From Alphaproteobacteria bacterium (GTDB lineage: Bacteria; Pseudomonadota; Alphaproteobacteria; Sphingomonadales; Emcibacteraceae): 64,000 bases of DNA. The stretch spans positions 1 through 64,000 of the forward strand of contig JAUIDN010000005.1 in NCBI GenBank assembly GCA_030428615.1. The letters run 5' to 3'. Below are positions 18,999 to 64,000 of the stretch, piece by piece. The notes beneath the pieces are model-generated. The model searched no databases. It saw only the letters and a program-made list of their open reading frames with translations, and had not been told where the DNA came from. The position numbers and the translations under genes are program-made. How positions within the stretch are numbered: the first letter of the stretch is position 1; every line of letters begins with the position of its first letter.

Positions 18999-19143
18999 GT
19001 CGCCCATCTGGTGGTCGGGACAACCAAGCAGAACGGAACATCCGTGTTGGCGATAACGTCGCTTACGCGGAGTAGTCAGCTTTTTTCCGACAAACTCCAC
19101 GTATAATTTAGCCGTCCCATAAGGGACATAAGTGGATTTTGTC

Positions 19144-21893: not shown

Positions 21894-22882
21894 ATAAATA
21901 TTTGTTCAGAAATATCCTTCTTGTCCTGGCATTGATCGTCGTGTCAATCGCATCTTTACTTATCGGACGCACAGAAATTGATGTGATAACAGTACTGAAA
22001 GCATTGTTCGGCGTAGCGGATGAACCCATAAACCTGATTATACAGGAACTGCGCCTGCCGCGGGTGCTGCTTGGCATCCTGATTGGGGCGGCCCTTGGTA
22101 TTTCCGGCGCCGCTTTGCAGGGCGTGTTAAGAAACCCTCTCGCCGATCCCGGAGTTATTGGTGTGTCGGCCAGTGCGGCGCTTGGCGCTGTTATTGCCAT
22201 TCATCTTGGTCTTCAATTAATCTGGTCTTTATTTATCCCCCTATTCGCCATGGGCGGCGCGTTAGTCGCGACCTTTATTCTGCTCTATGTTTCCATGCGC
22301 GAGAGCAGCGTTTTAACACTTATTCTCGTCGGGATCGGAATTAGTTCGCTTGCGATGGCGGGAGTTTCCCTGGTTATGAATATTGCACCATCGCCCATGA
22401 GTATTCGTGACATGATAATGTGGATGCTCGGATCCCTTGAAAATAGAACCATGACGGATTTAATGTTGGCCACACCCTTTATCCTTTTTGGATGGATTAT
22501 GATGATTAATGTTGGGCAGGGATTAAACGCGCTGAGTGTTGGTGAAGAAACAGCGCAAACCATGGGTATTAATGTAACCATGTTAAAATTACGCATCGTT
22601 GTGGGTTCAGCCATCAGCGTTGGTGCAGCGGTTGCCGCCTGCGGCAGCATAGGATTTATCGGGCTGGTCGTCCCGCATATGGTTCGCGGAATGATCACCA
22701 ATAACCCGGGTGACGTATTGCTCCCAAGCGCGATTATGGGCGGATTACTGCTTACATTGGCGGATCTGGCAACACGTATTCCCACATCGGGTGCAACACT
22801 ACAGCTTGGCGTCGTAACATCATTAATTGGCGCACCAGCATTCCTGTTCATCGTTTACAATACAAGAAAGAGCATGCGATGA
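21890..22882 (+). CDS. btuC: Cobalamin ABC transporter permease BtuC-like (FecCD family)
   Basis: 330 aa inner-membrane permease with about ten hydrophobic helices. The family motif LRLPRVLLGILIGAALGISGAALQGVLRNPLADPGVIGVSASAALGA is complete, as is CGSIGFIGLVVPHMVR, the coupling-helix region contacting BtuD. The start appears to be TTG at 21890, overlapping the btuF stop by four bases, which suggests coupled translation. The length equals the family norm. Confidence 0.9.
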   Translation: MNKYLFRNILLVLALIVVSIASLLIGRTEIDVITVLKALFGVADEPINLIIQELRLPRVLLGILIGAALGISGAALQGVLRNPLADPGVIGVSASAALGAVIAIHLGLQLIWSLFIPLFAMGGALVATFILLYVSMRESSVLTLILVGIGISSLAMAGVSLVMNIAPSPMSIRDMIMWMLGSLENRTMTDLMLATPFILFGWIMMINVGQGLNALSVGEETAQTMGINVTMLKLRIVVGSAISVGAAVAACGSIGFIGLVVPHMVRGMITNNPGDVLLPSAIMGGLLLTLADLATRIPTSGATLQLGVVTSLIGAPAFLFIVYNTRKSMR

Positions 22883-23661
22883 AATGTCTGAGAGTAGATA
22901 ATTTAAGTCTGGAGCTTGGTGGTTCACTCATCCTGAGCGGTATTTCAGCAACGCTAAACAGAGGCGAAATGGTCGGGCTTATCGGGCCAAATGGCGCCGG
23001 AAAAAGTAGCCTTCTCAGAAGTATTTTAGGGCTCGTGAAAATTAATAACGGTTCCATTATTGTCGATGACACTGATATTAACGCACTCAGTCTAAAGCAA
23101 CGGGCGCGAAAAATGGCCTATGCGGCGCAAGGTGCTCCGGTTTATTGGCCACTCACCGTTGAACATATTATTGGTTTGGGCCGAATGCCCCACTTAAACC
23201 CGTGGCAGAAAATTCGCCCAAGTGATCGCGACATAATTAATGATGCAATGATCAAAACCGATTGCACACATTTGAAAGGACGGTCGGTTATGACGCTATC
23301 TGGCGGGGAAAGAGCCCGCGTCTTACTGGCAAGGGTGTTGGCAACAAAAGCTCCATATGTCATGGCCGATGAGCCCGTCGCAGCACTTGACCCCGCGCAC
23401 CAACTAGGTGTCATGAATATACTTAAGGAATTAGCATCATCAGATTGCGGTGTGCTGGTCGTTATGCATGATTTAAGTTTGGCGGCAAGATATTGTGATC
23501 GCATCATACTTTTAAACGAAGGAAAAATGATCGGACAGGACAAACCGGACATCATGTTAAATGATGACAATCTGGCCGATGTATTTTCTGTCCGCGCTTC
23601 ACGGTGGAAAGATCAGGGCGAAGACTTCATAATCACACGTCAAATTGAAACAGGGATCTAA
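22879..23661 (+). CDS. btuD: Cobalamin ABC transporter ATPase BtuD-like
   Basis: 260 aa ABC ATPase. Walker [13 protein letters not shown]-loop [11 protein letters not shown], signature [16 protein letters not shown] and Walker [16 protein letters not shown], with switch His in VVMHDLS, are all intact. It powers BtuC. The ATG overlaps the btuC stop by four bases, and the stop is one base from cobQ, so this is a tight operon. No fusion or truncation. Confidence 0.92.
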
Positions 23662-23662
23662 A

Positions 23663-25125
23663 ATGACCCTCACTATCATGTTGCAGGGAACTGGTTCAGA
23701 CGTTGGAAAGTCCGTTTTGGTAGCGGGGCTTTGCCGCGCTCTTGTCAGGCGCGGGATGAGGGTCCGGCCATTTAAACCACAAAATATGTCAAACAACGCG
23801 GCCGTCACTGACGACGGTGGTGAAATCGGCAGAGCACAAGCCCTACAGGCAATCGCCTGTAAAACGCCCGCTTCGGTGCATATGAACCCGGTGCTATTAA
23901 AACCCCAAAGCGATGTGGGGGCACAAATAATTGTTCAGGGGAAAATGAAAGGTGCTGCCAACACAACATACTACTGCAAAAATAAACACGAGCTTCTTGC
24001 AAAAGTCGTCGAAAGCTTTGAAATCCTGAAAAAGGAAGCGGATATTATTGTCGTTGAAGGCGCCGGAAGCCCGGCGGAAGTAAACCTTCGCGACCATGAT
24101 ATTGCTAATATGGGGTTTGCGCTTGCCACGCAGACGCCCGTTATACTCATTGGCGATATTGACCGGGGCGGCGTTATTGCGTCAATTGTCGGGACGCATA
24201 CATTGCTTTCCGACGAAGACAGACATTTGATTAAGGGATATATCATAAATAAATTTCGTGGAGACATGAGCCTTTTTGATGATGCCCTTAACACAATAAC
24301 AAACCACACCGGATGGAAGAATATTGGCATCCTACCGTTTATCGAAAGCGCACGAAAACTACCAGCAGAAGATGCAGTTATTCTGGATCACGCGGAAAAA
24401 AACAATCAAAAAAATATCCTGATTGCGGTCCCCATGTTATCGCGGATCGCCAACTTCGATGATATGGATCCGTTAATTTCAGAGCCGGATGTGGAAGTGC
24501 GTTTTATTCCACCGGGTGAAATTATCCCCGCCAATGCTGATCTAGTTATCCTTCCGGGAACGAAAGCGACACGGGCCGATCTGACGTTTTTCAGAAAACA
24601 GGGTTGGGACATTGATCTTGCATCGCATATCCGTCGGGGCGGAACCGTACTTGGTATTTGCGGCGGTTACCAAATGCTCGGCAACAGTGTTTGCGACCCG
24701 GAAGGCATAGAAGGAACCCCGGGAGATGAAGCGGGTCTGGGATACCTGAATGTCAGAACGGTTATGAACGCAGAAAAAAAGTCGCACAGACAAAGGCGCA
24801 CTGCGAATTTCTTGAGTGTGAAACATTCGGTTACGAAATCCACATTGGCAAAACCAAGGGGCCGGATACCGAACGCTCCTTCCTTTCGGGCGACACCAAA
24901 AAATTGGGCGCGGCAACCAAAGACCATAAAGTTACCGGTGTTTACCTGCACGGTTTATTCACGGATGATACTTTCCGGATGAAATACCTGTCACAATTCA
25001 GAAGCGGGACACTTCATAAGACATCATTCGCCGAACAGATTGAAAATGCCCTTGATGAACTGGCGCGAGAGATGGAAAATTTTCTGGATATCGACGCGAT
25101 ATTAAAAATCGCCCGTGGGCACTAA
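23663..25125 (+). CDS. cobQ: Cobyric acid synthase CobQ, with frameshift at A AAA AAG
   Basis: Cobyric acid synthase amidates the b, d, e and g side chains of adenosyl-cobyrinic acid a,c-diamide. [28 protein letters not shown] is the ATP-grasping dethiobiotin-synthase-like N-terminus; [14 protein letters not shown] holds the GATase nucleophilic cysteine. The zero frame then leaves homology after NAEKK (24773-24781) and stops at 24982. The -1 frame from GTC 24781 restores the family sequence ([27 protein letters not shown]...), including the catalytic His of GVYLHGLF, to 25125, giving about 487 aa, normal length. The join sits on A AAA AAG (24775-24781), the classical -1 slippery heptamer used in dnaX, in the correct phase. 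A one-base deletion in the A run or a sequence error would look the same. Confidence 0.85.
24775..24781 (+). other. Slippery heptamer A AAA AAG in cobQ
   Basis: Codons GAA AAA AAG (24773-24781) lie in the zero frame. A -1 slip on this heptamer puts GTC GCA CAG ACA next, the exact reading frame of the conserved CobQ C-terminus. Whether it is programmed slippage or a damaged A run cannot be decided from sequence. Confidence 0.55.
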
Positions 25126-40052: not shown

Positions 40053-41285
40053 ATGTCTGCTGCACCATCACGTTTTACTTTTTTAAGCAAATCCGGCGAA
40101 AATCTTGATGCCCGGCTTGACATGCCCACGGGCGAGCCGATCGCATATGCCCTGTTTGCGCATTGCTTTACCTGTACAAAGGATATTTTCGCTGCAAACC
40201 GCATTGCAAAAGGGCTCAATGACGACAATATTGCGGTACTCCGTTTCGATTTTACCGGACTTGGCGCGAGTGAAGGCGAATTTGCCAACACAAATTTCTC
40301 ATCCAATGTGGAGGACCTGATTGCCGCGGCGGATACCATGCGTGACAAATTAATGGCCCCCGAAATTATTATCGGGCATTCCCTTGGCGGTGCGGCGGTC
40401 CTCGCTGCTGCAAAAAATATACCTGAATGCAAAGCCGTGGTCACAATAGGTGCACCGTCTGACCCCACCCATGTCATGAACAATTTCAAAAATTCTATCA
40501 AGGAGATTGAAAATGAGGGCGAAGCAGAAGTCCTATTGGTTGGAAGACCTTTTCGAATTCAGAAACAATTTATCGAGGATATTAAAGAGCAGAACCTTAA
40601 AAAAGAAATTAGTGAATTAAAAAAAGCATTGCTTGTATTTCATTCCCCGCTTGACCAAACCGTTGGGATTGAAAATGCAGGGGAAATTTATGATGCGGCA
40701 AAACATCCTAAAAGCTTTATTTCACTTGATGATGCCGACCACCTTTTGAGCAAACGTGAGGATGCCGATTATGTTGCCGATGTTATTGCCGCCTGGGCCA
40801 CACGATATATTACACATAAGGCAGCGACGAAACCAAAAACCCCCAAAGTCGAAAATGACATGGTTGTTGTCACGGAAACAGGGGATGGGAAATTTGCCAA
40901 TGTCGTTGTCACCAAGTCCGGACATATCGTAAGCGCCGATGAACCGGAAGCGATGGGTGGTAATAATACGGGACCGACCCCCTATGATTTTCTTCTGGCC
41001 GCACTCGGTTCCTGCAAATCAATAACAATGCGCATGTACGCCAATCATAAGGGCTTTGATATGGAGCGCGTGGAAGTCCGCCTTTCACATAGCAAAATTC
41101 ATGCGGAGGACTGTGCAAGTTGTGAAACAAAAAAAGGCAAGGTCGATCAAATTCAAACCGATATATCAATTACAGGTGACCTCAGCGCCGAGGAACAGCA
41201 AAGAATATTTGAGATTGCGGAACGCTGCCCCGTCCATAAAACAATAACCGGTGAAGTACTTATTAAATCAGATCTGAAAAACTAA
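40053..41285 (+). CDS. Bifunctional alpha/beta hydrolase - OsmC family protein
   Basis: 410 aa fusion. Residues about 1-255 are an alpha/beta hydrolase (HCFTCTKDIFAANRIAKGL, nucleophile elbow GHSLGG, and DADHLLSK with the catalytic His). Residues about 270-410 are an OsmC/Ohr domain with the two redox cysteines LAALGSCKSITMRMYA and ERCPVHKTI, suited to reducing organic peroxides. The start at 40053 has an AAAGGA ribosome site; upstream starts add an unrelated hydrophobic stretch. It converges with, and its stop overlaps, the TDO-like gene. It probably protects against acyl or organic hydroperoxides. Confidence 0.9.
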   Translation: MSAAPSRFTFLSKSGENLDARLDMPTGEPIAYALFAHCFTCTKDIFAANRIAKGLNDDNIAVLRFDFTGLGASEGEFANTNFSSNVEDLIAAADTMRDKLMAPEIIIGHSLGGAAVLAAAKNIPECKAVVTIGAPSDPTHVMNNFKNSIKEIENEGEAEVLLVGRPFRIQKQFIEDIKEQNLKKEISELKKALLVFHSPLDQTVGIENAGEIYDAAKHPKSFISLDDADHLLSKREDADYVADVIAAWATRYITHKAATKPKTPKVENDMVVVTETGDGKFANVVVTKSGHIVSADEPEAMGGNNTGPTPYDFLLAALGSCKSITMRMYANHKGFDMERVEVRLSHSKIHAEDCASCETKKGKVDQIQTDISITGDLSAEEQQRIFEIAERCPVHKTITGEVLIKSDLKN

Positions 41286-42217
41286 AGTTTTGTCCTGATT
41301 GACCACAGCTCCGGGAAAAAGCGGTGATCCACCGCTTTTTTCAACCATCCAACACCCGCAGAACCACCAGTGCCCGGCTTGAAGCCCAATATTCTTTCGA
41401 CAGAGACAAAATGTCGATGGCGGTACTGCGAAAATATATCGGCAATTTCCGTTAATCCTTCACCAAGCATGTATAAATCGTTGGCCGGTGTCGGGTCAGC
41501 ATATACCCTTAACCAGGCATCTTCGACAGACTTATGGGGTTTGTATTTTTCACTCCAATCACGATCAAGACATTCAGGTGAAACTTCAATTCCACGTCGG
41601 TCCAGCAACCTGATCACATCGTCATAGAGGCTCGGTGAATTAAAGTTTTTAAGAAGTGCAGGAAAAACATGGGATACATTGCTATGGGCATCACACATTT
41701 TTTTATTCTTGTTACCGAGTATGAATTCAATATGCCGATACATGAATGAAAGCTGGCCTGATGCCACATTAAGATAATCCCGAAAACTGTTAAACCCATC
41801 TGTTCTTATGGTCGAAAGAACCTCCCACACATTAACAATCAATTTTAAAATTTTCTTTGCTCTATCCAAAATAACAAAAGCGTTAGGGATATCGTCATCC
41901 CTGATACGCAATTGCAGGTTATAAAGTTCAAAATAAAGTGACTTGAAAAGAAGTTCCTTGGCCTGCCCCATAATAATGAAACACATTTCATCATAACCAC
42001 CCGACCGGGGATGCTGAAGGCTGAGAAGGAGGTCTATGCTTTCATAATCGATATAGGGGTTACTGTTACCCTTGAAATCCGTTATGGGTTCGCCCTCGGT
42101 CTCTATAACCTTCTGCTGACGATCCTTTTCCCCTAACGGATCGACGCGTCGGGGATATGGTGAACCATCTACACCATCAGGATCAACTATTTCCGGTATT
42201 ACGAACTCAAAGCTCAT
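41282..42217 (-). CDS. Tryptophan 2,3-dioxygenase family protein (divergent)
   Basis: 311 aa. LLLSLQHPRSGGYDEMCFIIMGQAKELLFKSLYFEL, GQLSFMYRHIEFILGNKN and YRHRHFVSVERILGFKPGTGGSAGVGWLKKAVDHRFFPELW align with tryptophan 2,3-dioxygenase, including the haem-ligand His in the final motif. TDO opens the indole ring to N-formylkynurenine. The motifs deviate from typical TDO (family text: SGFQS..YR; here GQLSFMYRH), so another indole-like or aryl substrate is possible. ATG 42217 has a GGGGAG site. Last gene of the operon, 12 bases after ACMSD. No kynB, kynurenine 3-monooxygenase or kynU is present. Confidence 0.78.
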   Translation of the reverse strand: MSFEFVIPEIVDPDGVDGSPYPRRVDPLGEKDRQQKVIETEGEPITDFKGNSNPYIDYESIDLLLSLQHPRSGGYDEMCFIIMGQAKELLFKSLYFELYNLQLRIRDDDIPNAFVILDRAKKILKLIVNVWEVLSTIRTDGFNSFRDYLNVASGQLSFMYRHIEFILGNKNKKMCDAHSNVSHVFPALLKNFNSPSLYDDVIRLLDRRGIEVSPECLDRDWSEKYKPHKSVEDAWLRVYADPTPANDLYMLGEGLTEIADIFSQYRHRHFVSVERILGFKPGTGGSAGVGWLKKAVDHRFFPELWSIRTKL

Positions 42218-42229
42218 CAAATTCTCCCC

Positions 42230-43228
42230 TTATACATCAAGATTAAAGAAACGTGCCGCATTAGACCCCAAAATGGAAGCCTTTTGTTTTTCATCCAAAC
42301 CATCATGACCCCGAACAAGCGCCCCCATATCAATTTCACCCAGTGGAAATGGATAATCGGTACCAAACATAATCCGGTCCGCACCGCTGCATTTGACAAG
42401 CAAATCAAGCGCGTCTTCGCTAAACACAGCGCTATCCAGATAAAATCGGTCCGTGTATGAAGATGGCAGATGCGGGCAATCCTTTCGGACAACATCCCTA
42501 TGTTTCCATGCATTATCCACACGCCCCATAAGATAGGCAAAACTGCCACCGCCATGGGCGAAACAAAGATTCAGTTTTCGGGGCAATCTTTCAAACGCGC
42601 CGGATAAAATAAGCGATAAAATTGAAAGCTGCGTTTCCGCCGGCATTGCCACCAGCCACTGCAGCATATATTTGGGCATCCGTTCCGGCGCCATCATATC
42701 CCAAGGGTGAATAAGCACAGGCGCACCAATATCAGCGCAATGCTGAAGGAAAGTGATCAGGCCCTCGTCATCAAGGTTTTTTTCATTGACATGATTTCCT
42801 ATCTGTACGCCAACATGCCCCGAAGCCATTGCCCGACTTGCTTCGCCGCAGGCCAGATCAATGTCCTGCAAAGGCACCTGGCACATGGCTTTCAAGCGGC
42901 CAGTATTGTGAGAGCACATCTCAAGCGCTGTATCATTCATTACTTTAGCGCATTCAAGCGATTGTTGCGGCGGTTTCGAATAGGCAAACAATATTGGCGT
43001 CGCGCATATAATCTGGATATCAACCCCGTGCTTATCCAGTTCTTCAATTCGGCGTGCTGGACTCCAACAGGCATCATAAATTGGCCGGTAATCCCCGCCA
43101 TCAAATGTTATCATTCCGTTTTCGTCAGATATTTTACGAAAGCCCGGCCAGATGCCATCCCCAAACCGTGTTTCCATGTCAGCAATGTTATCCGGATAAA
43201 AATGCGAATGTATATCGATGGTTTTCAT
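42230..43228 (-). CDS. Aminocarboxymuconate-semialdehyde decarboxylase (ACMSD)
   Basis: 332 aa metal-dependent amidohydrolase-fold decarboxylase. The metal site shows DIHSHFYP (two His, residues about 6-8), LIHPWDMM, FAHGGGSFAYLMGR, and GTDYPFPLG with the catalytic Asp. It converts 2-amino-3-carboxymuconate semialdehyde to 2-aminomuconate semialdehyde, the product of HAO being the substrate. Length matches characterised bacterial ACMSD. The ATG at 43228 starts 2 bases after the HAO stop; a TTG further up was not used. Confidence 0.92.
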   Translation of the reverse strand: MKTIDIHSHFYPDNIADMETRFGDGIWPGFRKISDENGMITFDGGDYRPIYDACWSPARRIEELDKHGVDIQIICATPILFAYSKPPQQSLECAKVMNDTALEMCSHNTGRLKAMCQVPLQDIDLACGEASRAMASGHVGVQIGNHVNEKNLDDEGLITFLQHCADIGAPVLIHPWDMMAPERMPKYMLQWLVAMPAETQLSILSLILSGAFERLPRKLNLCFAHGGGSFAYLMGRVDNAWKHRDVVRKDCPHLPSSYTDRFYLDSAVFSEDALDLLVKCSGADRIMFGTDYPFPLGEIDMGALVRGHDGLDEKQKASILGSNAARFFNLDV

Positions 43229-43230
43229 AA

Positions 43231-43785
43231 TTAAAGCTTTACCCAACCTTCAGGCGGCTTGCCTTTGCCCGGATGAACAACACCACAATTTTTACAGGTG
43301 CGTGCATTGATATTCTGATGGAATGCTTCAAAAAGAGGCGGCAGATCGGCAACAATGTCGTTTAATTTAACTTCGACCCTGTGCACGAGATGATTACAGT
43401 CAAAACAGAACCATTCGAACCCGTCAAGCTGATCACTGGCCCTATTCCCTTCAACAACAAGGCCGATGGATTCAGGATCAGGTCGTTGTGGTGAATGGCG
43501 TACATGAGGAGGCAGCATAAAAACCTCCCCTTCGCGGATAACAACATCACTCACCTGATTATCTTCCCATGTTTTTAAAACCATATCGCCTTTTATCTGA
43601 TAGAAAAACTCTTCAACCGGATCATCATGAAAATCAACTCGTGTATTACCCCCGCCGATGACCATGACAATCATGTCGGTTCCTTCAAAGACCATTTTAT
43701 TGGCAACCGGTGGCCGCAATTTATCACGATTATCTTCGATCCATTTATTGAAATTAAATGGTTTCGAGTATTTATAAACGGTCAT
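43231..43785 (-). CDS. 3-hydroxyanthranilate 3,4-dioxygenase
   Basis: 184 aa cupin. The catalytic iron ligands appear as HDDPVEEFFYQIKG (His and Glu) and PPHVRHSP (His). The C-terminal CFDCNHLVHRVEV...CKNCGVVHPG provides four cysteines for the second rubredoxin-like iron seen in bacterial enzymes. It opens the ring of 3-hydroxyanthranilate to 2-amino-3-carboxymuconate semialdehyde. It overlaps the RidA gene by four bases and abuts ACMSD, so the two consecutive steps are co-translated. Confidence 0.95.
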   Translation of the reverse strand: MTVYKYSKPFNFNKWIEDNRDKLRPPVANKMVFEGTDMIVMVIGGGNTRVDFHDDPVEEFFYQIKGDMVLKTWEDNQVSDVVIREGEVFMLPPHVRHSPQRPDPESIGLVVEGNRASDQLDGFEWFCFDCNHLVHRVEVKLNDIVADLPPLFEAFHQNINARTCKNCGVVHPGKGKPPEGWVKL

Positions 43786-44210
43786 TTTTTATTCTCCCGT
43801 AATGGTGCAAAAGCAATGGCCTTCATTTCTATCAGCAGGTTCAGATGCGGAAGTTGTCGAACGGCAACGGTTGTTCGGGTTGGTCCATTTTCCGCTTTAA
43901 AAAAATCGCCGTACACTTCGTTATAGCCTTGAAAATCATCCATGTTTACAAGATATGTTGTGATCTCCGCCAGATCGGTTAGTGTCGCACCGGCGGCTTC
44001 CAGCGTCTTTTCAATATTTAAGATAACAGCACGGGTCTGTTTTCTGATATCAAGGGTTACGCTTCCATCAGGATTTATTGCAACCCCTTCATGGCTGTCA
44101 TCCGAACGGCGCGAACTGGTTCCGGAGATAAAAATAAAATCGCCGACGCGTCTGTAATGTGGATAAGCTCCCAGGGGTTTTGCTTTATCGCCTATTATAA
44201 CATTGCTCAT
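43782..44210 (-). CDS. RidA family protein, probable 2-aminomuconate deaminase
   Basis: 142 aa. YjgF/RidA fold with YPHYRRVGDFIFISGTSSRRSDDSHEG near the start, IEKTLEAAGATLTDLAEITTYLVNMDDFQGYNEVYGDFF and TRTTVAVRQLPHLNLLIEMKAIAFAP, with the family Arg. Near HAO, ACMSD and an aldehyde dehydrogenase it is best read as 2-aminomuconate deaminase giving 4-oxalocrotonate. It follows the aldehyde dehydrogenase by 9 bases. Confidence 0.85.
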   Translation of the reverse strand: MSNVIIGDKAKPLGAYPHYRRVGDFIFISGTSSRRSDDSHEGVAINPDGSVTLDIRKQTRAVILNIEKTLEAAGATLTDLAEITTYLVNMDDFQGYNEVYGDFFKAENGPTRTTVAVRQLPHLNLLIEMKAIAFAPLRENKK

Positions 44211-44219
44211 TTTCGTCCT

Positions 44220-45677
44220 CTAATGTTTCACACAAATGGTCAGCGGCTCCGAATAAAATTCAAGGCTGTGTATGCCACCCTCGCGACCAATTCCAGATAG
44301 TTTTACCCCACCGAACGGCGTGCTAAGATCACGCAGAAACCATTCATTCACCCAGCAAATCCCCACTTCCAACCGACGTGCAATACGGTTCGCTTTATCC
44401 ATATCCGTCGTCCAGATCGCGGCTGCAAGACCGTAAACGCTGTCATTTGCATAGCTTATTACATCCCCTTCACAATCAAATGGTGTGATATGGCAAACCG
44501 GGCCAAATATTTCTTCTTTCATGCATCTCGCATCTTCGGCCAAGCCTGTCCAAATGGTCGGGCGAATAAAGAAACCGTTGTCTCTGCTGTCCCCGAATTC
44601 CGGTACCCCGCCCCCGGTTATGAGAGTGGCGCCTTCCTCAAGTGCTAACGAAAAATAAGCCATGACCTTGTCTCGATGCACTTTGGAAATTAACGGCCCC
44701 ATGTCCGACCCGTCTTCGGGTCTGCCGATTTTGATAGCCTGGGCCTCTTTCTTTAAGGCGTCAACAAAATCATTGAATATTGAGCGTTCGACATAAACCC
44801 TTTCCGAACAAAGGCATACCTGACCACAATTTGAAAAAGCAGACCTGATTGTCCCGGCGACTGCCTTCTCAAAATCCGCATCCGCAAAAATAATGGCCGC
44901 GTTCTTACCGCCAAGTTCAAATGAAACAGGGCGTAAACCAACAGCCGCATTTTTCATAATTGCGACACCCGTACTGCTTTCGCCTGTGAAAGTCACCGCG
45001 TCAACATCCGGATTGGAAACAATAACTTCACCCGCCGATCCCGGTCCAAAGCCATGCACCAGATTAAAAACACCCTTTGGTACACCGACTTTATCCATGA
45101 CTTCTGCAAGTAATGTCGCCGTTGACGGCGTTTCTTCGGATGGCTTTACAACCACCGTATTTCCAGCGGCAAGCGCTGGCGCTACTTTCCAGGTCATCAG
45201 TAGTAGTGGTAAATTCCACGGTGAAATGACAGCAACCACACCGATAGGTTTGTCAACGATATAATTGGTGGCCCCTTTGCCGTCTTTTGTTTCCATATCC
45301 CACGACTTTTCGTCCTGTTTTGTCGCCAGATCGGCAAAGAACCTGAAATTCGCGGCACCGCGCGGAATATCAATATTTTTGACCTGACTGTGTGCTTTTC
45401 CCGTGTCGGCAATCTCGGCTTTTACAAAATCATCAAAACGATTTTCAATTTCATCGGCCACTTTCATAAGCAGGACGCACCTGTCCTTCCTGCTTATTTT
45501 CCCCCACGGTCCTTTAAGGGCTTCTTTCGCAGCTGAAACAGCTTTATCTACGGTTTTTTTATCGGCCTCCGATACCTGACAAACCAGTGTCCCGTCTACG
45601 GGATTGATATTATCAAACAGATTGCTGCCATCAACAAATTCACCCGCAACATAATTTTTTAAAATTCTGCCCGACAC
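44220..45677 (-). CDS. Aldehyde dehydrogenase, probable 2-aminomuconic semialdehyde dehydrogenase
   Basis: 485 aa NAD-dependent aldehyde dehydrogenase. The catalytic cysteine is in FSNCGQVCLCSERVYV, the general base Glu in SFELGGKNAAIIFADADFEK, and NAD contacts in ISPWNLPLLLMTWKVAPALAAGNTVVVKPSEETP. It oxidises 2-aminomuconate semialdehyde to 2-aminomuconate in the 3-hydroxyanthranilate route. It is the first gene of the minus-strand operon, 124 bp from the divergent LysR. A hydroxymuconic-semialdehyde dehydrogenase is a close alternative, but the neighbours fix the pathway. Confidence 0.9.
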   Translation of the reverse strand: MSGRILKNYVAGEFVDGSNLFDNINPVDGTLVCQVSEADKKTVDKAVSAAKEALKGPWGKISRKDRCVLLMKVADEIENRFDDFVKAEIADTGKAHSQVKNIDIPRGAANFRFFADLATKQDEKSWDMETKDGKGATNYIVDKPIGVVAVISPWNLPLLLMTWKVAPALAAGNTVVVKPSEETPSTATLLAEVMDKVGVPKGVFNLVHGFGPGSAGEVIVSNPDVDAVTFTGESSTGVAIMKNAAVGLRPVSFELGGKNAAIIFADADFEKAVAGTIRSAFSNCGQVCLCSERVYVERSIFNDFVDALKKEAQAIKIGRPEDGSDMGPLISKVHRDKVMAYFSLALEEGATLITGGGVPEFGDSRDNGFFIRPTIWTGLAEDARCMKEEIFGPVCHITPFDCEGDVISYANDSVYGLAAAIWTTDMDKANRIARRLEVGICWVNEWFLRDLSTPFGGVKLSGIGREGGIHSLEFYSEPLTICVKH

Positions 45678-56216: not shown

Positions 56217-57604
56217 ATTTACCGCAGTTTGATGCGGGGTCGTTCCGTGATCCCGGTGGTCAGGTTTTCATAAACGACAATAAAGTTTATAGAACCATAA
56301 ACAAACCAAAAGCATTGATTTATGAAAAATGCAAGGAAGCTGGCATCTACGCATGGCTTGAAGAAAAAGGATATCTTCTTCCTCATACCGAAGTCGATAT
56401 TTCTGCATTTTCAAATTTGGGTGAAAATGTAGAATATGTTATTAAACACCCAAAAATAAAGTTTATTTCATACCCCTATGAATGGTCATTCAGAGCACAC
56501 AAAAAAGCAGCTCTCTTGCATCTTGATATGCATATCGATCTGCTGAGTAGAGGGTTCACCCTAATTGATGCGAGCGCCTACAACATCCAGTTTCAGGGTA
56601 CGAAACCCGTTTTTATAGATCACCTGTCTATAGAACCCTATAACGAAGGTGACATATGGACCGGACATCAGCAATTCTGTTCGCAATTTTTAAATCCATT
56701 GTTGCTTTGGTCGCTCGCGGACTTTGCCCCAAATGCTTTATTTCGAGGATCCCTGGAAGGCATCGCAGCTGAAGAAACCGCAAAGATACTGCCTTTTTCA
56801 AAGAAATTATCCTGGACGGTGTTCACCCACGTCATCCTTCAGGCAAAATTGCAAAAAAATGCCCTAAACAGTTCCGCCGCGGAAGGAAAAGCGAAACAAA
56901 CAAAGCTTTCAAAAATGGCCTTTATTGGCATTCTCACAGGACTTAGAAATTATATCAGCAAACTGGAAGGTCCTAATACTAATACAGTTTGGGCAAGTTA
57001 TGAAAACGACAATACCTACACAGATGATGATGCACGCGTAAAGCAGGCGTTTGTTCAGGATATGGTGGAAGGGGTCAAACCTGCCCTACTTTTTGACATT
57101 GGGTGTAACACCGGTAATTATTCCAATGCATCATTGGCAGCAGGGGCCGACCAGGTAATTGGTTTTGATTTTGATCATACTACCCTGGATTTTGCCTTTG
57201 AACGATTTGAAAAGGATGCAAAAAATTTTACGCCTCTTTGGCTGGATGCCGCTAATCCAAGCCCTAATCAGGGGTGGGCGCAAAATGAACGAAAGGGGCT
57301 AACTGAAAGATCGAATGCAGATGCATTGATCGCCTTGGCATTCATTCATCACATTGTAATTGGAAGGAATATTCCCCTTAACATGGCATTGGATTGGCTT
57401 CTTAAGCTGGCCCCCTGCGGTGTTATAGAATTTCCAAGCAAAGAAGATCCCATGGTGCGAAAGTTGCTGAGATTAAGACAGGATATCTTTCCCGACTATA
57501 ACGAAGAAACTTTTCTAAGACTGTTGAAAGAAAAATCAAAAATCATCACGAAAAAGCACCTTAATAACGGAACACGCCTACTGGTTCGGTATAATAATCA
57601 TTAA
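56213..57604 (+). CDS. Class I SAM-dependent methyltransferase, NoeA-like
   Basis: 463 aa. The N-terminus FRDPGGQVFINDNKVYRTINKPKALIYEKCKEAGIYAWLEEKGYLLPHTE matches the front of NoeA-like host-specificity proteins. The SAM site is LLFDIGCNTGNYSNASLAAGADQVIGFDFDHTTLD. NoeA-like enzymes methylate sugars of envelope or nodulation glycans; the substrate here is not known. It is coupled to the YLDPGTGS gene. Its stop codon overlaps that of the convergent thiolase (TTAA), showing tight packing. Confidence 0.78.
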   Translation: MNLPQFDAGSFRDPGGQVFINDNKVYRTINKPKALIYEKCKEAGIYAWLEEKGYLLPHTEVDISAFSNLGENVEYVIKHPKIKFISYPYEWSFRAHKKAALLHLDMHIDLLSRGFTLIDASAYNIQFQGTKPVFIDHLSIEPYNEGDIWTGHQQFCSQFLNPLLLWSLADFAPNALFRGSLEGIAAEETAKILPFSKKLSWTVFTHVILQAKLQKNALNSSAAEGKAKQTKLSKMAFIGILTGLRNYISKLEGPNTNTVWASYENDNTYTDDDARVKQAFVQDMVEGVKPALLFDIGCNTGNYSNASLAAGADQVIGFDFDHTTLDFAFERFEKDAKNFTPLWLDAANPSPNQGWAQNERKGLTERSNADALIALAFIHHIVIGRNIPLNMALDWLLKLAPCGVIEFPSKEDPMVRKLLRLRQDIFPDYNEETFLRLLKEKSKIITKKHLNNGTRLLVRYNNH

Positions 57605-58800
57605 ACCCGTTCTATAATCATGGCAATGCCCTGACCAACACCAACACACATTGTACATAAAGCGCGCTTTTTATTTGTGCGCTCAAGTTGATAAAGGGCA
57701 GTTGTTGCAAGACGAACACCACTCATCCCCAATGGATGACCAAGCGCGATAGCCCCCCCCTGTGGGTTTATGCGTGGGTCATCATCTTCAATCCCCATAG
57801 CCCGCGTGCAGGCAAGAACCTGTGCGGCGAACGCTTCGTTGAGTTCCAGTATATCCATATCATCAAGAGTAAGACCCGCGCGCGCCATCAGCTTTTCTGT
57901 TGCTGGTACTGGTCCTATTCCCATAATTCTTGGTGGCACACCAGCAACGGCCGAACCAATTATCCTTGCCCTCGGTTTCAGACCATGTTTATTTGCTGCC
58001 TCCTCCGACGCGATCAATGTTGCGGCGGCGCCGTCATTGATACCAGATGCGTTCCCGGCAGTGACACTCCCCCCTTCAAAAATCGGCCGAAGAGTTGCCA
58101 TTTTGTCTAACGTTGTTTCCCGCGGATGTTCATCACGATCCACGACGATTGGATCACCTCGGCGCTGTGGCACTGTGACGGCGACTATTTCAGATGCCAT
58201 ATCACCGGAGCTGATCGCCGCGGCTGCTTTTTGCTGGCTCCAGAACGCGAATTTATCCTGATCTTCTCGGCTGATTTTATGCTCATCAGCCAAATTTTCG
58301 GCCGTTTGCGGCATTACATCAGTGCCGTATTCCTTATCGAGTTTTTTATTGATAAAGCGCCAGCCCATCGTTGTATCATAAAGCTCATGTGAACGATCAT
58401 ACGGCGCAGTGCTTTTTCCCATAACAAACGGTGATCGCGACATGCTTTCAACACCACCCGCAATCATTAATTCGCCCTCACCCGCCGCAATCGCATTTGC
58501 CGCGACCCCGATAGCATTAAGGCCGGAACCACACAGGCGGTTTACAGTTGTCGCCGGCACCTCCTGCGGAAGTCCAGATAAAAGCGTGGCCATACGAGCC
58601 ACATTGCGGTTATCTTCGCCGGCCTGGTTCGCACACCCATAAATTAAGTCATCAACGGCGGCCCAGTCGACATTTTTATTACGTTCCATCAAAGCCGCAA
58701 GTGGGATCGCCGCCAAATCATCAGCACGAACAGCCGCCAATCCCCCGCCATAACGACCAACAGGCGTACGGATTGCATCGCAAATAAAAACGTCTTTCAT
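57601..58800 (-). CDS. Thiolase, 3-oxoadipyl-CoA thiolase type
   Basis: 399 aa. Thiolase Cys in VNRLCGSGLNAIGVAANAI, NEAFAAQVLACTRAMG, GGAIALGHPLGMSG (His) and the second Cys in TMCVGVGQGIAMI are all present. The VNRLCGSG and VTAGNASGINDGAA text places it with PcaF/PaaJ, which cleaves 3-oxoadipyl-CoA to succinyl-CoA and acetyl-CoA. It is the last gene of the KamA-like operon, 12 bases after the aminotransferase, so here it should cleave the 3-oxoacyl-CoA produced by the upstream steps. Confidence 0.9.
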   Translation of the reverse strand: MKDVFICDAIRTPVGRYGGGLAAVRADDLAAIPLAALMERNKNVDWAAVDDLIYGCANQAGEDNRNVARMATLLSGLPQEVPATTVNRLCGSGLNAIGVAANAIAAGEGELMIAGGVESMSRSPFVMGKSTAPYDRSHELYDTTMGWRFINKKLDKEYGTDVMPQTAENLADEHKISREDQDKFAFWSQQKAAAAISSGDMASEIVAVTVPQRRGDPIVVDRDEHPRETTLDKMATLRPIFEGGSVTAGNASGINDGAAATLIASEEAANKHGLKPRARIIGSAVAGVPPRIMGIGPVPATEKLMARAGLTLDDMDILELNEAFAAQVLACTRAMGIEDDDPRINPQGGAIALGHPLGMSGVRLATTALYQLERTNKKRALCTMCVGVGQGIAMIIERV

Positions 58801-58812
58801 GGAACTTCTTTC

Positions 58813-60120
58813 TTAAAACTGGTTTTTCATTTTATTCAGACCACCGAGTACTGCTTCAGCCAATCGGTCTATTTCCTTTTCGGTCATAACCGTGGATAAA
58901 ACGCCGGAACAGGTATTGATCATCATAATGCCATCATCAAACAAATGATCAAGAAGCGTTTTGGTCAGCGCCGCTTCGCGCGGTGTTACATACGCATCCC
59001 GGTAGCTCACTGGAGCTTCCGGTTTCATATGGATGCGAAACATCGACCCTGCCCCTGTTACACACGCCGGAACGTCTGCTATTTTTATGGCCTCAGATAT
59101 TGAGTTTCGTGCATAATTCGCCAGTTTGTTAAGCCGCAGCACGGCACTTTGGTCGAACATTTGCATCGATTTCAAACCCGCAGTCATCGTGATTGGGTTC
59201 GCGGAAAATGTACCTGAGTGCGGAAATAATACCTTTTCCGCCAGCGGGTTCATCACGTCCATAACATCGGCCCGTCCCGCAAGCGCACCAACCGGGAAAC
59301 CGCCACCAATCATTTTACCCATAGCGGTCAGATCCGGTGTCACGCCGTCATACCATTCCTGGGCACCGCCATAATTCGAACGGAAGGTGATCACTTCATC
59401 ATAAACCAGAAGAGCATCATTTTTCCGTGTCCAGTTATAAATCGCATTGACGAAATCATCATTGGCCGTAATCAAGCCAACACGGTGCGGCATCACATCA
59501 AGAAGCACACAGGCGATATCATCTGCATTTTGTTCGAGAATTTTAATTGCACGCTCGGGTTCGTTAAAAGGTATGATAACCACGTCTTCGAGGGCTGCTT
59601 TGGGCGTACCGTGGGCGACAGGAACACTTTTCGGATTGTCGGCATCACCCCAATTTTCCGGTTTCGACGTCTGACTTACTTCCGCATAGTCATAAAGACC
59701 GTGATAAGCCCCTTCCGCTTTGGCAATTTTAGCGCGTCCCGTAAACGCCCTCGCCGCCTTAAGGCAGCTCATCACCGCTTCCGTACCGGAATTGACAAAC
59801 CGCATTTTCTCAAAAGAAGCGCTGCGGTTGACAAGATGTTCTGCATATTCAATTTCAACTTCGGTCCCAACTGTAAAAGCTGTCCCCTTTGCCAATTGTT
59901 CGCTAACCGCTGCTACGACCTCTGGGTGAGCATGCCCATGAATGAGCGAACACATATTATTGGCAAAATCAATACGCTTCACGCCTTCGATGTCGGTAAC
60001 GTAACAACCTTCCCCTTTTTCCACATAAAGCGGATGAGGTTTACGAAGGATCGTATTACGGCTGCAGCCGCCTGGCATTACTTTAAGACCGCGTTCATAT
60101 AATTCTGAGCTTTTTGACAT
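58813..60120 (-). CDS. Class III aminotransferase, GSA/beta-aminotransferase-like
   Basis: 435 aa class III PLP enzyme related to glutamate-1-semialdehyde aminomutase and beta-amino acid transaminases. RGLKVMPGGCSRNTILRKPHPLYVEKGEG, RFVNSGTEAVMSCLKAARAFTGR, LLVYDEVITFRSNYGGAQEW (Asp to pyridine N) and DLTAMGKMIGGGFPVGALAGR with the Schiff-base lysine are clear. A haem-type HemL role is unlikely in this operon. The genes around it predict removal of a beta-amino group to give a beta-keto acid. It follows the CoA-transferase B gene by 10 bases. Confidence 0.85.
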   Translation of the reverse strand: MSKSSELYERGLKVMPGGCSRNTILRKPHPLYVEKGEGCYVTDIEGVKRIDFANNMCSLIHGHAHPEVVAAVSEQLAKGTAFTVGTEVEIEYAEHLVNRSASFEKMRFVNSGTEAVMSCLKAARAFTGRAKIAKAEGAYHGLYDYAEVSQTSKPENWGDADNPKSVPVAHGTPKAALEDVVIIPFNEPERAIKILEQNADDIACVLLDVMPHRVGLITANDDFVNAIYNWTRKNDALLVYDEVITFRSNYGGAQEWYDGVTPDLTAMGKMIGGGFPVGALAGRADVMDVMNPLAEKVLFPHSGTFSANPITMTAGLKSMQMFDQSAVLRLNKLANYARNSISEAIKIADVPACVTGAGSMFRIHMKPEAPVSYRDAYVTPREAALTKTLLDHLFDDGIMMINTCSGVLSTVMTEKEIDRLAEAVLGGLNKMKNQF

Positions 60121-60130
60121 TATTTTTCCT

Positions 60131-60781
60131 TTACGCTGCGTTTAATGTGCAGCCGGTTCTTTCCTGAACATAATCAAAATCCACGCCTGGGGCGAGTTCC
60201 ACAAGTTTAAAGCCATCCGGGGTGACATCAACTACCGCAAGATCCGTATAAATGCGGCTTACCACCCCAACGCCTGTGAGGGGAAATGTGCATTTGGACA
60301 CCAGTTTCGGTTCGCCGTTTCTTGTACAATGTTGCGTGATGACATTAATGGTTTTAACACCTGCAACAAGGTCCATGGCGCCACCAACTGCGGGAATCGC
60401 ATCCGGATTTCCTGTTGACCAGTTTGCCAGATCCCCATTTTCCGCCACCTGCATCGCACCAAGAACGCAAATATCAATATGATTACCGCGGATCATTGAA
60501 AAGCTGTCTGCATGATGAAAATAGGCGGCACCAGGTATCGCCGTGACAAGTTTTTTACCAGCATTGATAAGTTCCGGATCTTCTTTTCCCGGCTCCGGGG
60601 CATCGCCCATTCCAAGCAACCCATTTTCTGTATGATAAATTACTTCGCGGCCTTCGGGTACATAACGGACAACTTTTTCCGGTATCCCAATACCAAGGTT
60701 CACATAAGCGCCGTTTGGGATATCCTGTGCAGCACGTTCAGCCATTTGCTCTCGGTTCCAGCCAATTACCTGTTCGTTCAT
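60131..60781 (-). CDS. 3-oxoacid CoA-transferase subunit B
   Basis: 216 aa. The catalytic Glu lies in YHTENGLLGMGDAP, after YVNLGIGIPEKVVRYVPEGREV; the HADSFSMIRGNHIDICVLGAMQVAENGDLANW segment is diagnostic of subunit B of succinyl-CoA:3-oxoacid transferases including PcaJ and ScoB. The ATG overlaps the subunit A stop by four bases, as in other alpha/beta pairs. Together they move CoA from succinyl-CoA to a 3-oxo acid. Confidence 0.92.
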   Translation of the reverse strand: MNEQVIGWNREQMAERAAQDIPNGAYVNLGIGIPEKVVRYVPEGREVIYHTENGLLGMGDAPEPGKEDPELINAGKKLVTAIPGAAYFHHADSFSMIRGNHIDICVLGAMQVAENGDLANWSTGNPDAIPAVGGAMDLVAGVKTINVITQHCTRNGEPKLVSKCTFPLTGVGVVSRIYTDLAVVDVTPDGFKLVELAPGVDFDYVQERTGCTLNAA

Positions 60782-61488
60782 GGGTAAACCTCCTCAGCGG
60801 CGACAAGTTCTGATTCGTGAAGGGGGTTCGCTACTGTCACAACCTGATCAACAAAAATACCTGGTGTGACAACAATTTCAGGATCAATTTCACCCGCGTC
60901 AACATATTCCCTAGTTTGCACGATTGTTGTTTTTCCGGCCATTGCCATAATAGGGGCAAAATTGCGGGCCGTTTTATTATAAATCAGATTTCCGTAGCGA
61001 TCCGCTTTAAGGCATTTGATCAACGAAAAATCGGCGGTAAGGCCGTATTCCAAAACATAATCGCGGCCATTAATATTTCTAACTTCCTTACCTTCCGCAA
61101 GCGGCGTCCCCACAGACGTCGCCGTATAAAAGGCTGGCACTCCCGCACCCCCGGCACGAATACGTTCCGCAAGCGTTCCCTGCGGCACGAGTTCCAGCTC
61201 AATTTCACCTTTTTTATAAAGTTCAGGAAAAACAGTAGAATTTGCTGTACGCGGAAAGGAACAGATCATCTTGGCTACACGCTTGTTTTCTATAAGCGCC
61301 GCCAGACCAACATGACCGGATCCCGTATTATTATTCACCACAGTAAGGTCCTTTGCCCCGTGGTCGATCAGCGCATGAATAAGTTCAATGGGGCTTCCCG
61401 CTTCACCAAACCCGCCGATCATGACGGTGGCGCCATCAAGTATGTTCGCCACCGCGTCATGAACAGAGTTCACTTGTTTATTTATCAT
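60778..61488 (-). CDS. 3-oxoacid CoA-transferase subunit A
   Basis: 236 aa. The subunit A fold with GATVMIGGFGEAGSPIELIHALIDHGAKDLTVVNNNTGSGHVGLAALIENKRVAKMI and GTLAERIRAGGAGVPAFYTATSVGTPLAEGKEVRNINGRDYVLEYGLTADFSLIK is that of PcaI/ScoA. It partners subunit B downstream with a four-base overlap and lies 21 bases after the KamA-like gene. Confidence 0.92.
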   Translation of the reverse strand: MINKQVNSVHDAVANILDGATVMIGGFGEAGSPIELIHALIDHGAKDLTVVNNNTGSGHVGLAALIENKRVAKMICSFPRTANSTVFPELYKKGEIELELVPQGTLAERIRAGGAGVPAFYTATSVGTPLAEGKEVRNINGRDYVLEYGLTADFSLIKCLKADRYGNLIYNKTARNFAPIMAMAGKTTIVQTREYVDAGEIDPEIVVTPGIFVDQVVTVANPLHESELVAAEEVYP

Positions 61489-61509: not shown

Positions 61510-62922
61510 TTAAGCTTTAATACTGAACAATCCTGCTTCATCATAAATAACACGGTCCTTGAAACCGTCAAACCAGATAGCATCGGGGTTACGACCAACA
61601 ATTGCAACCTGACCTTTTTTCGGTGCATCTTCAGCAGAGCGAAGAAGTTTAAAGATCACAACACCATTTTCGCCGCCCTTGACACCTTCCATCGGTTCAT
61701 TGGTTACAGCGACCACTTCTGTCTTACCGTAATAGTGAGTAATGGACAGACGGGCATGCGCTTCAACGCCGGAAAGACCGCGTTGGGATTTATTCAAAAT
61801 ATTCCACGCTTCTTCAATCGGAACGTTAAAGGCTTTATGACCAACAATGTCACGACCACAGAAGAAATAGTGGTTTTCAACTTTGTTGCGACGAAGTTCA
61901 CGTTGCATGATGCGAAGGGCATCGGGGTCATTGTTGATATTCTTGATAATCGGTGCCTGATTATCAACTGTAATGAAACGGCGTTTGCCGAATTCTTTGA
62001 TTGCACGCTCGGTGCTTGGCACCCACTCAAGACCACCGCCGGGCTTGTCGATATAATTACCGTCTTCATCCTTGAGCAAAAATTCATCTGGATGGTTAAA
62101 GTGAATCATAAAACGTAACCGTGTTTCCGGATAAGCTTCATGGAAATCATCAACCATTTTAAAGAAGCTGTCATCAAAACGGTCAGGGAAGAACGCAAGT
62201 TCCTTTGTTCCAAGGCGAATGCTTTCGATACCAGCTTCAGAAAGAGCCGCCCACCAGGAAGCAATTCCCTTGTTGGCCAGAACCATTGGGTCCCCACCGG
62301 ACATCAGTATCTCACGAAGTTTTTCACGACCTGTAACAGGGTGGTGCCCGCCATTTTCTTCAACGATTTTATTATGCTCAACAATATATTCAACAAGCTC
62401 AGGGATTTGCGCAAGCCCTTTGGCCTGAATTGAACCGTCCTCACGGATAATTTCTTTCTTGGCAATAAGTTCTTCACGGTAACAGAAACGACAGTGAGCA
62501 GAACATGTACCAGCAACATAGATCAGGCCAAGTTCATATTTATGAATAAGTCCTTCAACCGGGCTGTAGCTCATTTGCTTGCCGGGGTCTTCAGAACCCG
62601 CAAGGTCAAATGTTTCAGCAGGACTTGCCTTAATCAATGTTTTAATGGGTGCACTGTTGCGCGCACGTTCAAAATAATGACGGGTGATTTTAACCGGCAT
62701 ACGGGCTTCAATGTCTTTATTCGTACCCTTCAATGCTGATATGGCTTCGATTTCTTCCTTACTGTAGAAATCCTTCATATCATCATCTACTTTTCCGTCG
62801 ATGAATTTTTGAAGACCGGCAACGATTTTGCGGTCATATTTTGCATTTTCAACTTTGCTGAGGAAATCTGCTTCGCGCTCAGTTGGCACATGCTTCTTTC
62901 TGATTGGGTTTTGAACATTCAT
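61510..62922 (-). CDS. Radical-SAM KamA-family 2,3-aminomutase, substrate unassigned
   Basis: 470 aa from ATG 62922, preceded at 8 bases by GGAGG; an upstream GTG is less likely. KamA-family enzymes interconvert alpha- and beta-amino acids using SAM, a 4Fe-4S cluster and PLP. The cluster ligands C140, C144 and C147 are in AGTCSAHCRFCYREE. The PLP lysine is K400 in HYYGKTEV. Two aspartates that bind the side-chain amine in lysine 2,3-aminomutase (C. subterminale D293 and D330, 37 and 44 residues spacing to K337) correspond here, with the same spacing, to G356 (in FCGRD) and S393 (in LSITHYYGK). The enzyme is thus probably not a lysine mutase; R357 could bind an acid. The four following genes process a beta-amino acid. 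Annotations as lysine 2,3-aminomutase should be treated as family names. Confidence 0.85.
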   Translation of the reverse strand: MNVQNPIRKKHVPTEREADFLSKVENAKYDRKIVAGLQKFIDGKVDDDMKDFYSKEEIEAISALKGTNKDIEARMPVKITRHYFERARNSAPIKTLIKASPAETFDLAGSEDPGKQMSYSPVEGLIHKYELGLIYVAGTCSAHCRFCYREELIAKKEIIREDGSIQAKGLAQIPELVEYIVEHNKIVEENGGHHPVTGREKLREILMSGGDPMVLANKGIASWWAALSEAGIESIRLGTKELAFFPDRFDDSFFKMVDDFHEAYPETRLRFMIHFNHPDEFLLKDEDGNYIDKPGGGLEWVPSTERAIKEFGKRRFITVDNQAPIIKNINNDPDALRIMQRELRRNKVENHYFFCGRDIVGHKAFNVPIEEAWNILNKSQRGLSGVEAHARLSITHYYGKTEVVAVTNEPMEGVKGGENGVVIFKLLRSAEDAPKKGQVAIVGRNPDAIWFDGFKDRVIYDEAGLFSIKA

Positions 62923-62970: not shown

Positions 62971-63083
62971 ATTACAAAAGCTCACTTCAATATGTCACTG
63001 TAAACTAAAATTTCTGTTAAATTAAATAAAAATAGCCATATTGACAACTTATTCTTACTCACGTATCTATGAGTTTTTGTAAT
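62971..63083. promoter_or_regulatory. 14-bp inverted repeat pair in the kamA-lysR promoter region
   Basis: ATTACAAAAGCTCA (62971-62984) and TGAGTTTTTGTAAT (63070-63083) are inverted copies with one mismatch, 85 bases apart, flanking the divergent promoters of the KamA-like operon and the LysR gene. Such spaced arms are consistent with LysR tetramer binding or looping. It is not the T-N11-A half-site type in the strict sense. Confidence 0.55.
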
Positions 63084-63097
63084 GAATGAGGCATTAA

Positions 63098-64000
63098 ATG
63101 CTTGGCCAAAGACGTCTTATACCCAGCACCAGCATGCTGATGGCATTTGAAGCGTCTGCCCGAAACGGCAGTTTCACCGGCGCAGCGCAGGAACTAAGCC
63201 TGACACAGGGCGCAATCAGCCGACAGGTAAGCGCGCTTGAGGAGCAGCTCGGCGTCAAATTATTCGAACGCGTTAAAAAATCGATCAAATTAACGGAAGT
63301 TGGTGAAACCTACGCCGATGAAATTGCGGTCGCGCTTCGGACCATACGTAATGCATCCCTTAACGCGGTAAGCGATACGCAGGGTCAGACACTAAACCTG
63401 GCAATTTTGCCGACCTTTGGTATGCGGTGGTTGATGCCGCGCTTTCCGGATTTTATTGAAAAAAACCCGCAAATTACGGTGAATTTCACCAGTAAACTGT
63501 CTCCCTTTGATTTTTCCAATGAAAACCTGCATTCCGCCATACATTTTGGCCATCCTGACTGGCCTAACACGGATGGTACATTTCTCATGAATGAAGAAGC
63601 TGTTCCGGTCGCGGCACCATCACTTATCGGGGATCATATGATTAAGGATGCGACGGAGATCGCCCGCATGCCCCTTCTTCATCTGGAAACACGCCCAAAC
63701 GCCTGGGCCGACTGGTTTAAACAAAACGATATCACACCGCCCGCCAACCGGGGAATGGTTCTTGAACAGTTTTCAATGGTCACGCAGGCCGCCGTTGCCG
63801 GGCTTGGTGTCGCGCTGCTGCCCCATTTTCTGATCAATACGGAACTGGAACGCGGGGAGCTGGAAATATTGTTGGAAACACCACTAAAAAATAGCGCGGG
63901 GTATTATCTGATTACGCCAAAAACACACACATCCTACGCACCTGTCAATGCACTGCGAGATTGGCTGTTGGAGCAAACCAGAGATAAAGAAACCACTGAG
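63098..64000 (+). CDS. LysR-family regulator (GcvA-like), cut by window end
   Basis: At least 301 codons, open to the window edge. The HTH opens with RRLIPSTSMLMAFEASARNGSFTGAAQELSLTQGAISRQVSALEEQLGVKLFERVKKSIKLTEVGETY, a GcvA-like LysR, and the effector domain runs on through MRWLMPRFPDFIEKNP and QAAVAGLGVALLPHFLI. It is divergent from the KamA-like operon and likely its regulator; two inverted-repeat arms lie between them. The natural stop codon is outside the window. Confidence 0.88.
   Translation, partial: MLGQRRLIPSTSMLMAFEASARNGSFTGAAQELSLTQGAISRQVSALEEQLGVKLFERVKKSIKLTEVGETYADEIAVALRTIRNASLNAVSDTQGQTLNLAILPTFGMRWLMPRFPDFIEKNPQITVNFTSKLSPFDFSNENLHSAIHFGHPDWPNTDGTFLMNEEAVPVAAPSLIGDHMIKDATEIARMPLLHLETRPNAWADWFKQNDITPPANRGMVLEQFSMVTQAAVAGLGVALLPHFLINTELERGELEILLETPLKNSAGYYLITPKTHTSYAPVNALRDWLLEQTRDKETTE

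Follow-up and report, generated by a model that had tools for sequence, protein, structure and literature searches.

The window, that is, the whole stretch of 64,000 nucleotides analysed from the genome of a marine alphaproteobacterium of the family Emcibacteraceae (assembly GCA_030428615.1, contig JAUIDN010000005.1), carries a gene for a KamA-like enzyme, here called the mutase (KAM). The gene begins with an ATG at 62922, a start that is kept in relatives, and it is the first gene of an operon with the order KAM-PcaI-PcaJ-AT3-PcaF, AT3 being a class III aminotransferase. All five genes lie on one strand, separated by no more than 21 bases, and the PcaI-like and PcaJ-like genes overlap by 4 bases (Table 1). 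The divergent LysR-family gene partners the mutase gene in most relatives as well. Between the two genes lies a CTCAC-N6-ATGAG dyad, which is conserved, though not always identically, across 15 intergenic regions, those of a second genus among them, and is a candidate for the LysR operator.

Table 1. Features of the mutase locus (positions in the window)
Feature	Position	Strand	Basis
LysR-family regulator, divergent from the mutase gene; the window ends inside the gene	63098..64000	+	
CTCAC-N6-ATGAG dyad between the LysR and mutase genes, putative operator	63058..63073	.	alignment of 15 intergenic regions
KamA-like radical SAM/PLP enzyme, 470 aa, proposed L-2-aminoadipate 2,3-aminomutase	61510..62922	-	sequence, profile, fold
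3-oxoacid (3-oxoadipate) CoA-transferase subunit A, PcaI-like	60778..61488	-	TIGR02429, 348.4 bits, cut-off 128.5
3-oxoacid (3-oxoadipate) CoA-transferase subunit B, PcaJ-like	60131..60781	-	TIGR02428, 300.3 bits, cut-off 243.6
Class III aminotransferase (AT3), proposed beta-amino-acid (3-aminoadipate) transaminase	58813..60120	-	R21 aligns with R36 of 6K8H
3-oxoadipyl-CoA thiolase, PcaF	57601..58800	-	TIGR02430, 679.7 bits, equivalog cut-off 597

Elsewhere in the window, inspection by eye revealed a tryptophan/kynurenine degradation-like cluster on the minus strand (41282-45677), with genes resembling those for tryptophan 2,3-dioxygenase, an amidohydrolase, 3-hydroxyanthranilate dioxygenase, a RidA-like protein and an aldehyde dehydrogenase. 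A TonB receptor gene followed by BtuF-, BtuC- and BtuD-like genes and a CobQ-like gene was noticed in the same way at 19132-24982.

A Pfam search with the mutase protein returned no match. Against the curated profiles it scored 85.7 bits with the KamA family radical SAM proteins (TIGR00238; E 2.7e-24, missing the cut-off of 199.2), 85.7 bits with glutamate 2,3-aminomutase (TIGR04368), far under the cut-off of 650, and 70.9 bits with lysine 2,3-aminomutase (LAM; TIGR03820), where the cut-off is 525.4; its sequence thus places it as a KamA homologue outside the curated TIGR00238 family. The sole solved relative found by sequence was Clostridium subterminale KamA (2a5h; phmmer, E 1.8e-10), and the mutase profile matched a set of lysine-mutase-like sequences in hhalign with an E of 2.5e-41. 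With an AlphaFold model of mediocre quality (mean pLDDT 63.5, used for fold matching only), Foldseek ranked 2a5h first (E 1.7e-9), the following entries lying above 5e-3; the active-site comparison was dropped because the model is too poor at residues 104-160, 163-169, 350-363 and 376-401. Judged from sequence, profile and fold together, the mutase is a remote homologue of KamA.

The catalytic residues of the KamA family were examined in the alignments. The CxxxCxxC motif corresponds to C140/C144/C147, R149 is the equivalent of LAM R134, and K400, which stands in a GK pair, aligns with the KamA PLP lysine K337 in a MAFFT alignment of 32 sequences; in this last region the hhalign profile alignment was unstable. 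C140/C144/C147, R149, R357-D358, R391, S393 and K400 are all invariant over 20 aligned family members, down to 70% identity, in agreement with the initial description of a KamA-like ORF whose cluster cysteines and PLP lysine are intact. Only one cysteine (C355) is present beyond those of the cluster, so the zinc cysteines of KamA are missing. That the protein might be no aminomutase at all, and instead share the KamA fold and catalyse a different radical reaction or none, is suggested by its very low similarity to characterised members, the blank Pfam search and the failure to reach any family cut-off. We regard this as extremely unlikely, as the cluster cysteines, the lysine of the GK pair and R149 are all invariant and the other operon genes imply a beta-amino acid.

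The two aspartates D293 and D330 of KamA hold the side-chain amine of lysine. Counting back from the PLP lysine, the initial annotation had set G356 and S393 at these sites, with the spacing exactly preserved. The first assignment was off by one and is rejected: phmmer, hhalign and the 32-sequence MAFFT alignment all pair LAM D293 with R357 (in phmmer counted from a local alignment with 2a5h that contains no gaps), and the preserved spacing had been an assumption. S393 keeps its place opposite D330 by counting back from the GK lysine in the MAFFT alignment, a match that is less certain because the profile alignment is unstable there and the model has low reliability over residues 376-401. The central claim, that both lysine-specificity aspartates have been lost, therefore stands, with R357 and S393 at the two sites and no other acidic residue placed there by the alignments. 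By sequence, R357 represents a charge reversal at the point where LAM holds the lysine ammonium. A tree separated the mutase family with full support from lysine-mutase-like sequences that keep the aspartates, and R357 is common to three groups, namely the mutase family and two more distant clades; such conservation makes the replacement more than a chance difference. The earlier proposal that the enzyme acts not on lysine but probably on a substrate whose side chain is acidic gains support from sequence and context, the arginine lying at the D293 site itself and not beside it. Taken together, this arginine, the operon partners and the operons of relatives sharpen the proposed substrate to L-2-aminoadipate.

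Several more distant KamA-like proteins came up alongside the family. A longer family (513-547 aa; L069:8646-10277, L070:9032-10675, L071:9174-10715 and L072:9428-11008) occurs in other Alphaproteobacteria, is 34-41% identical to the mutase and has the equivalents of R357 and R391; in L070 and L072 a class I aminotransferase gene adjoins. Another distant KamA-like protein, L026:1330-2640, likewise carries R in place of D293. Its gene is flanked by one for a class III aminotransferase and one whose product resembles an NRPS condensation domain, and the protein may provide a beta-amino acid for a natural product. Its ARDTG motif recurs in KamA-like proteins of Chloroflexi (L116:5374-6696 and L117:4205-5578).

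The genes downstream of the mutase were then considered for what they may do with its product. The adjacency of the PcaI-like gene to the mutase gene is conserved in relatives. The nearest matches of the PcaIJ-type transferases are succinyl-CoA:3-ketoacid transferases, and the family acts broadly on 3-oxoacids. AT3 found its best full-length PDB match in 6K8H (377.7 bits), and its R21 aligned without gaps to the carboxyl-binding Arg of class III beta-amino-acid transaminases. The 6K8H transaminase of S. thermophilus has measured activity on beta-amino acids, and its R36 was proposed to bind the substrate carboxyl (PMC10589169); a carboxyl-binding role has likewise been ascribed to R41 of the beta-transaminase motif (PMC9850050). 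An assignment of AT3 as the glutamate-1-semialdehyde aminomutase HemL was rejected on its TIGR00713 score (328.2 bits against a cut-off of 527.3) and on the presence of R21. For PcaF, the beta-ketoadipyl-CoA thiolase structures 6pca to 6pcd were among the top PDB matches, and a score above the equivalog cut-off implies that its substrate would be a C6 3-oxodicarboxylyl-CoA. The gene content suggests an operon logic in which a beta-amino acid is made, transaminated to a 3-oxo acid, activated and cleaved as 3-oxoadipyl-CoA, and the alpha-amino acid compatible with this logic is 2-aminoadipate.

Two alternatives concern the length and nature of the substrate. If the CoA-transferase and thiolase were generalists, the operon could serve another beta-amino acid derived from some unrecognised acidic or polar alpha-amino acid, a notion to which the breadth of the 3-oxoacid transferase family and the Chloroflexi KAM-AT3 pairs without PcaIJ lend some colour; it is very improbable, given that PcaF exceeds the 3-oxoadipyl-CoA equivalog cut-off and that the linkage to a semialdehyde dehydrogenase described below points to a C6 acid. 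A glutamate 2,3-aminomutase would convert L-glutamate into beta-glutamate, which would either pass through 3-oxoglutarate and its CoA ester to malonyl-CoA and acetyl-CoA or serve as a compatible solute. TIGR04368 is the best curated match, level with the KamA family and above the 70.9 bits for lysine, and an arginine at the D293 site would suit any acidic side chain; the glutamate mutase of C. difficile also has a cationic residue, Lys, at that site, and the two KamA aspartate sites are Lys and Asn in glutamate 2,3-aminomutase. We nevertheless hold this alternative to be unlikely, since the score falls far short of the family cut-off, the thiolase cut-off that was passed is for a C6 and not a C5 substrate, a compatible solute would need neither CoA-transferase nor thiolase, and a glutamate route would leave the 2-aminoadipate semialdehyde dehydrogenase linked in two relatives without a function. 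No true glutamate mutase for comparison came out of Chloroflexi: every TIGR04368 match there scored under the cut-off, and the LAM aspartates are present in the ones inspected.

To see how the locus is distributed, 196 sampled genomes of the order were searched. At a loose threshold, 30 of them gave a mutase match and 25 contained true members; elsewhere in the class the family is rare, and it is also found in two Chloroflexi MAGs (71%). Gene order varies among the relatives and the partners persist. Some have a co-directional operon like that of the window. In another genus the mutase gene faces AT3-PcaJ-PcaI, and in Chloroflexi the mutase-AT3 pair stands alone, without PcaIJ. AT3 is present in 22/25 of the mutase genomes and in 0/171 of the others, a contrast among related species for which a p-value overstates the association. 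The three mutase genomes without this AT3 are G036, G054 and G060; the scattered members in other families (G085, G107 and G151) each possess both genes. In one Chloroflexi genome with the mutase-aminotransferase pair (L082:7305-12005), a PcaF-like thiolase gene (product 53% identical) has a class I aminotransferase gene on one side and a CaiB-like CoA-transferase gene on the other; the cluster is a possible alternative lower pathway.

Two relatives connect the locus with lysine degradation. In G151 (L058), four genes follow in a row: a LysDH-like gene whose product has saccharopine-dehydrogenase domains, an L-piperidine-6-carboxylate (2-aminoadipate semialdehyde) dehydrogenase gene (NF050084, 806.8 bits against a cut-off of 730; alpha-aminoadipic semialdehyde dehydrogenases are among its PDB relatives), the mutase gene (72%) and AT3 (64%). 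In G036 (L172) the mutase gene lies elsewhere, and PcaI-PcaJ directly precede an L-piperidine-6-carboxylate dehydrogenase gene, and their products are 72-73% identical to those of the window. These two independent linkages suggest that both ends of the proposed route are tied to 2-aminoadipate. The same gene set and linkage would also result if a lysine 2,3-aminomutase acted first, its beta-lysine being deaminated and oxidised at the epsilon position to 3-aminoadipate by the LysDH-like protein and an aldehyde dehydrogenase before entering the same lower pathway, and the best characterised relative of the mutase is indeed a lysine mutase. This order of steps appears quite improbable to us, because both ammonium-holding residues are gone, one of them replaced by an invariant Arg, and because the neighbouring dehydrogenase scores above the cut-off for an enzyme acting on an alpha-amino acid semialdehyde.

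The window's genome was searched for the same functions. It contains an L-piperidine-6-carboxylate dehydrogenase (G000:C15:58022-59446; 794.8 bits, cut-off 730), which is not near the mutase operon, a LysDH-like protein that shares 39% identity with its G151 counterpart and has only predicted activity, and a second, more distant CoA-transferase. A targeted search found no HglS, and the glutamate-mutase profile retrieved no further KamA-type protein. Across the order, the piperidine-6-carboxylate dehydrogenase occurs in 18/25 mutase genomes (G054, which has no AT3 of this kind, is among those lacking it) against 72/171 others (p 0.009, a value that ignores kinship and overstates the association); since this enzyme is common across the order, its co-occurrence with the mutase is weak evidence. 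HglS occurs in only 9/196 genomes, which makes its co-occurrence uninformative. The LysDH-like gene, a candidate for the first lysine step, from lysine to 2-aminoadipate semialdehyde, was found in only 5/13 genomes of the genus, which counts against the proposed route.

Based on these data, we propose that the mutase is a radical-SAM/PLP L-2-aminoadipate 2,3-aminomutase whose product is channelled through 3-aminoadipate, 3-oxoadipate and 3-oxoadipyl-CoA to succinyl-CoA and acetyl-CoA, a reading to which we assign a probability of roughly 0.7. The flux would run from lysine, which would supply 2-aminoadipate through 2-aminoadipate semialdehyde. A [4Fe-4S] cluster on C140/C144/C147 would cleave SAM, and the 5'-deoxyadenosyl radical would abstract hydrogen from C3 of L-2-aminoadipate bound as an aldimine with PLP, the internal aldimine being formed with K400. 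R149 would grip the 1-carboxylate as LAM R134 does, and R357 would grip the distal carboxylate, with R391 as a candidate helper. Shift of the nitrogen from C2 to C3 would yield 3-aminoadipate, which AT3 may convert to 3-oxoadipate, PcaIJ to 3-oxoadipyl-CoA, and PcaF to the two end products.

The proposed system shares parts with several known ones. The mutase resembles KamA/AblA (C. subterminale, 2a5h; TIGR03820) in CxxxCxxC, the R134/R149 arginine, PLP lysine K400 and the Foldseek-supported fold, whereas D293→R357, D330→S393, a separate clade and a score of 70.9 bits against a cut-off of 525.4 set it apart. With the glutamate 2,3-aminomutase of C. difficile (TIGR04368) it would have in common a positive charge in the D293 position (Lys in that enzyme) and the logic of an acidic substrate, but the mutase has Arg/Ser and a C6 catabolic operon. 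The CoA-transferase and 3-oxoadipyl-CoA thiolase (PcaIJ, PcaF) are those of the lower beta-ketoadipate pathway, here proposed to be fed with an amino acid by mutase and transaminase and not by aromatic ring cleavage. AT3 keeps as R21 the carboxyl-binding Arg of class III beta-amino-acid transaminases (S. thermophilus 6K8H; Variovorax) and differs in its proposed dicarboxylic substrate. The step of the 2-aminoadipate semialdehyde dehydrogenase is common to lysine degradation by 2-aminoadipate and 2-oxoadipate/glutaryl-CoA or HglS, whereas here 2-aminoadipate would be isomerised and not alpha-transaminated. A search of open-access full texts brought up no description of the enzyme or route. The chemistry and fold are known, and the substrate and the pathway junction are likely new.

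Lysine catabolism is diverse, yet nearly every annotated route leads to glutaryl-CoA (PMC5653290). We lean slightly towards the broader view that the mutase has an undescribed activity within an undescribed lysine route, which reaches the beta-ketoadipate endpoint without 2-oxoadipate or glutaryl-CoA, in presumably oxygen-respiring bacteria, that the mutase-transaminase pair has passed between Alphaproteobacteria and Chloroflexi, and that the wider R357 clade comprises mutases for acidic amino acids. If true, the route would provide a short end of lysine degradation via 3-oxoadipate to succinyl-CoA and acetyl-CoA and an enzymatic route to beta-aminoadipate. It would also add one more substrate to those of the radical-SAM aminomutases, and the replacement of Asp by Arg at the D293 site would give a sequence rule for re-annotating distant homologues of lysine 2,3-aminomutase.
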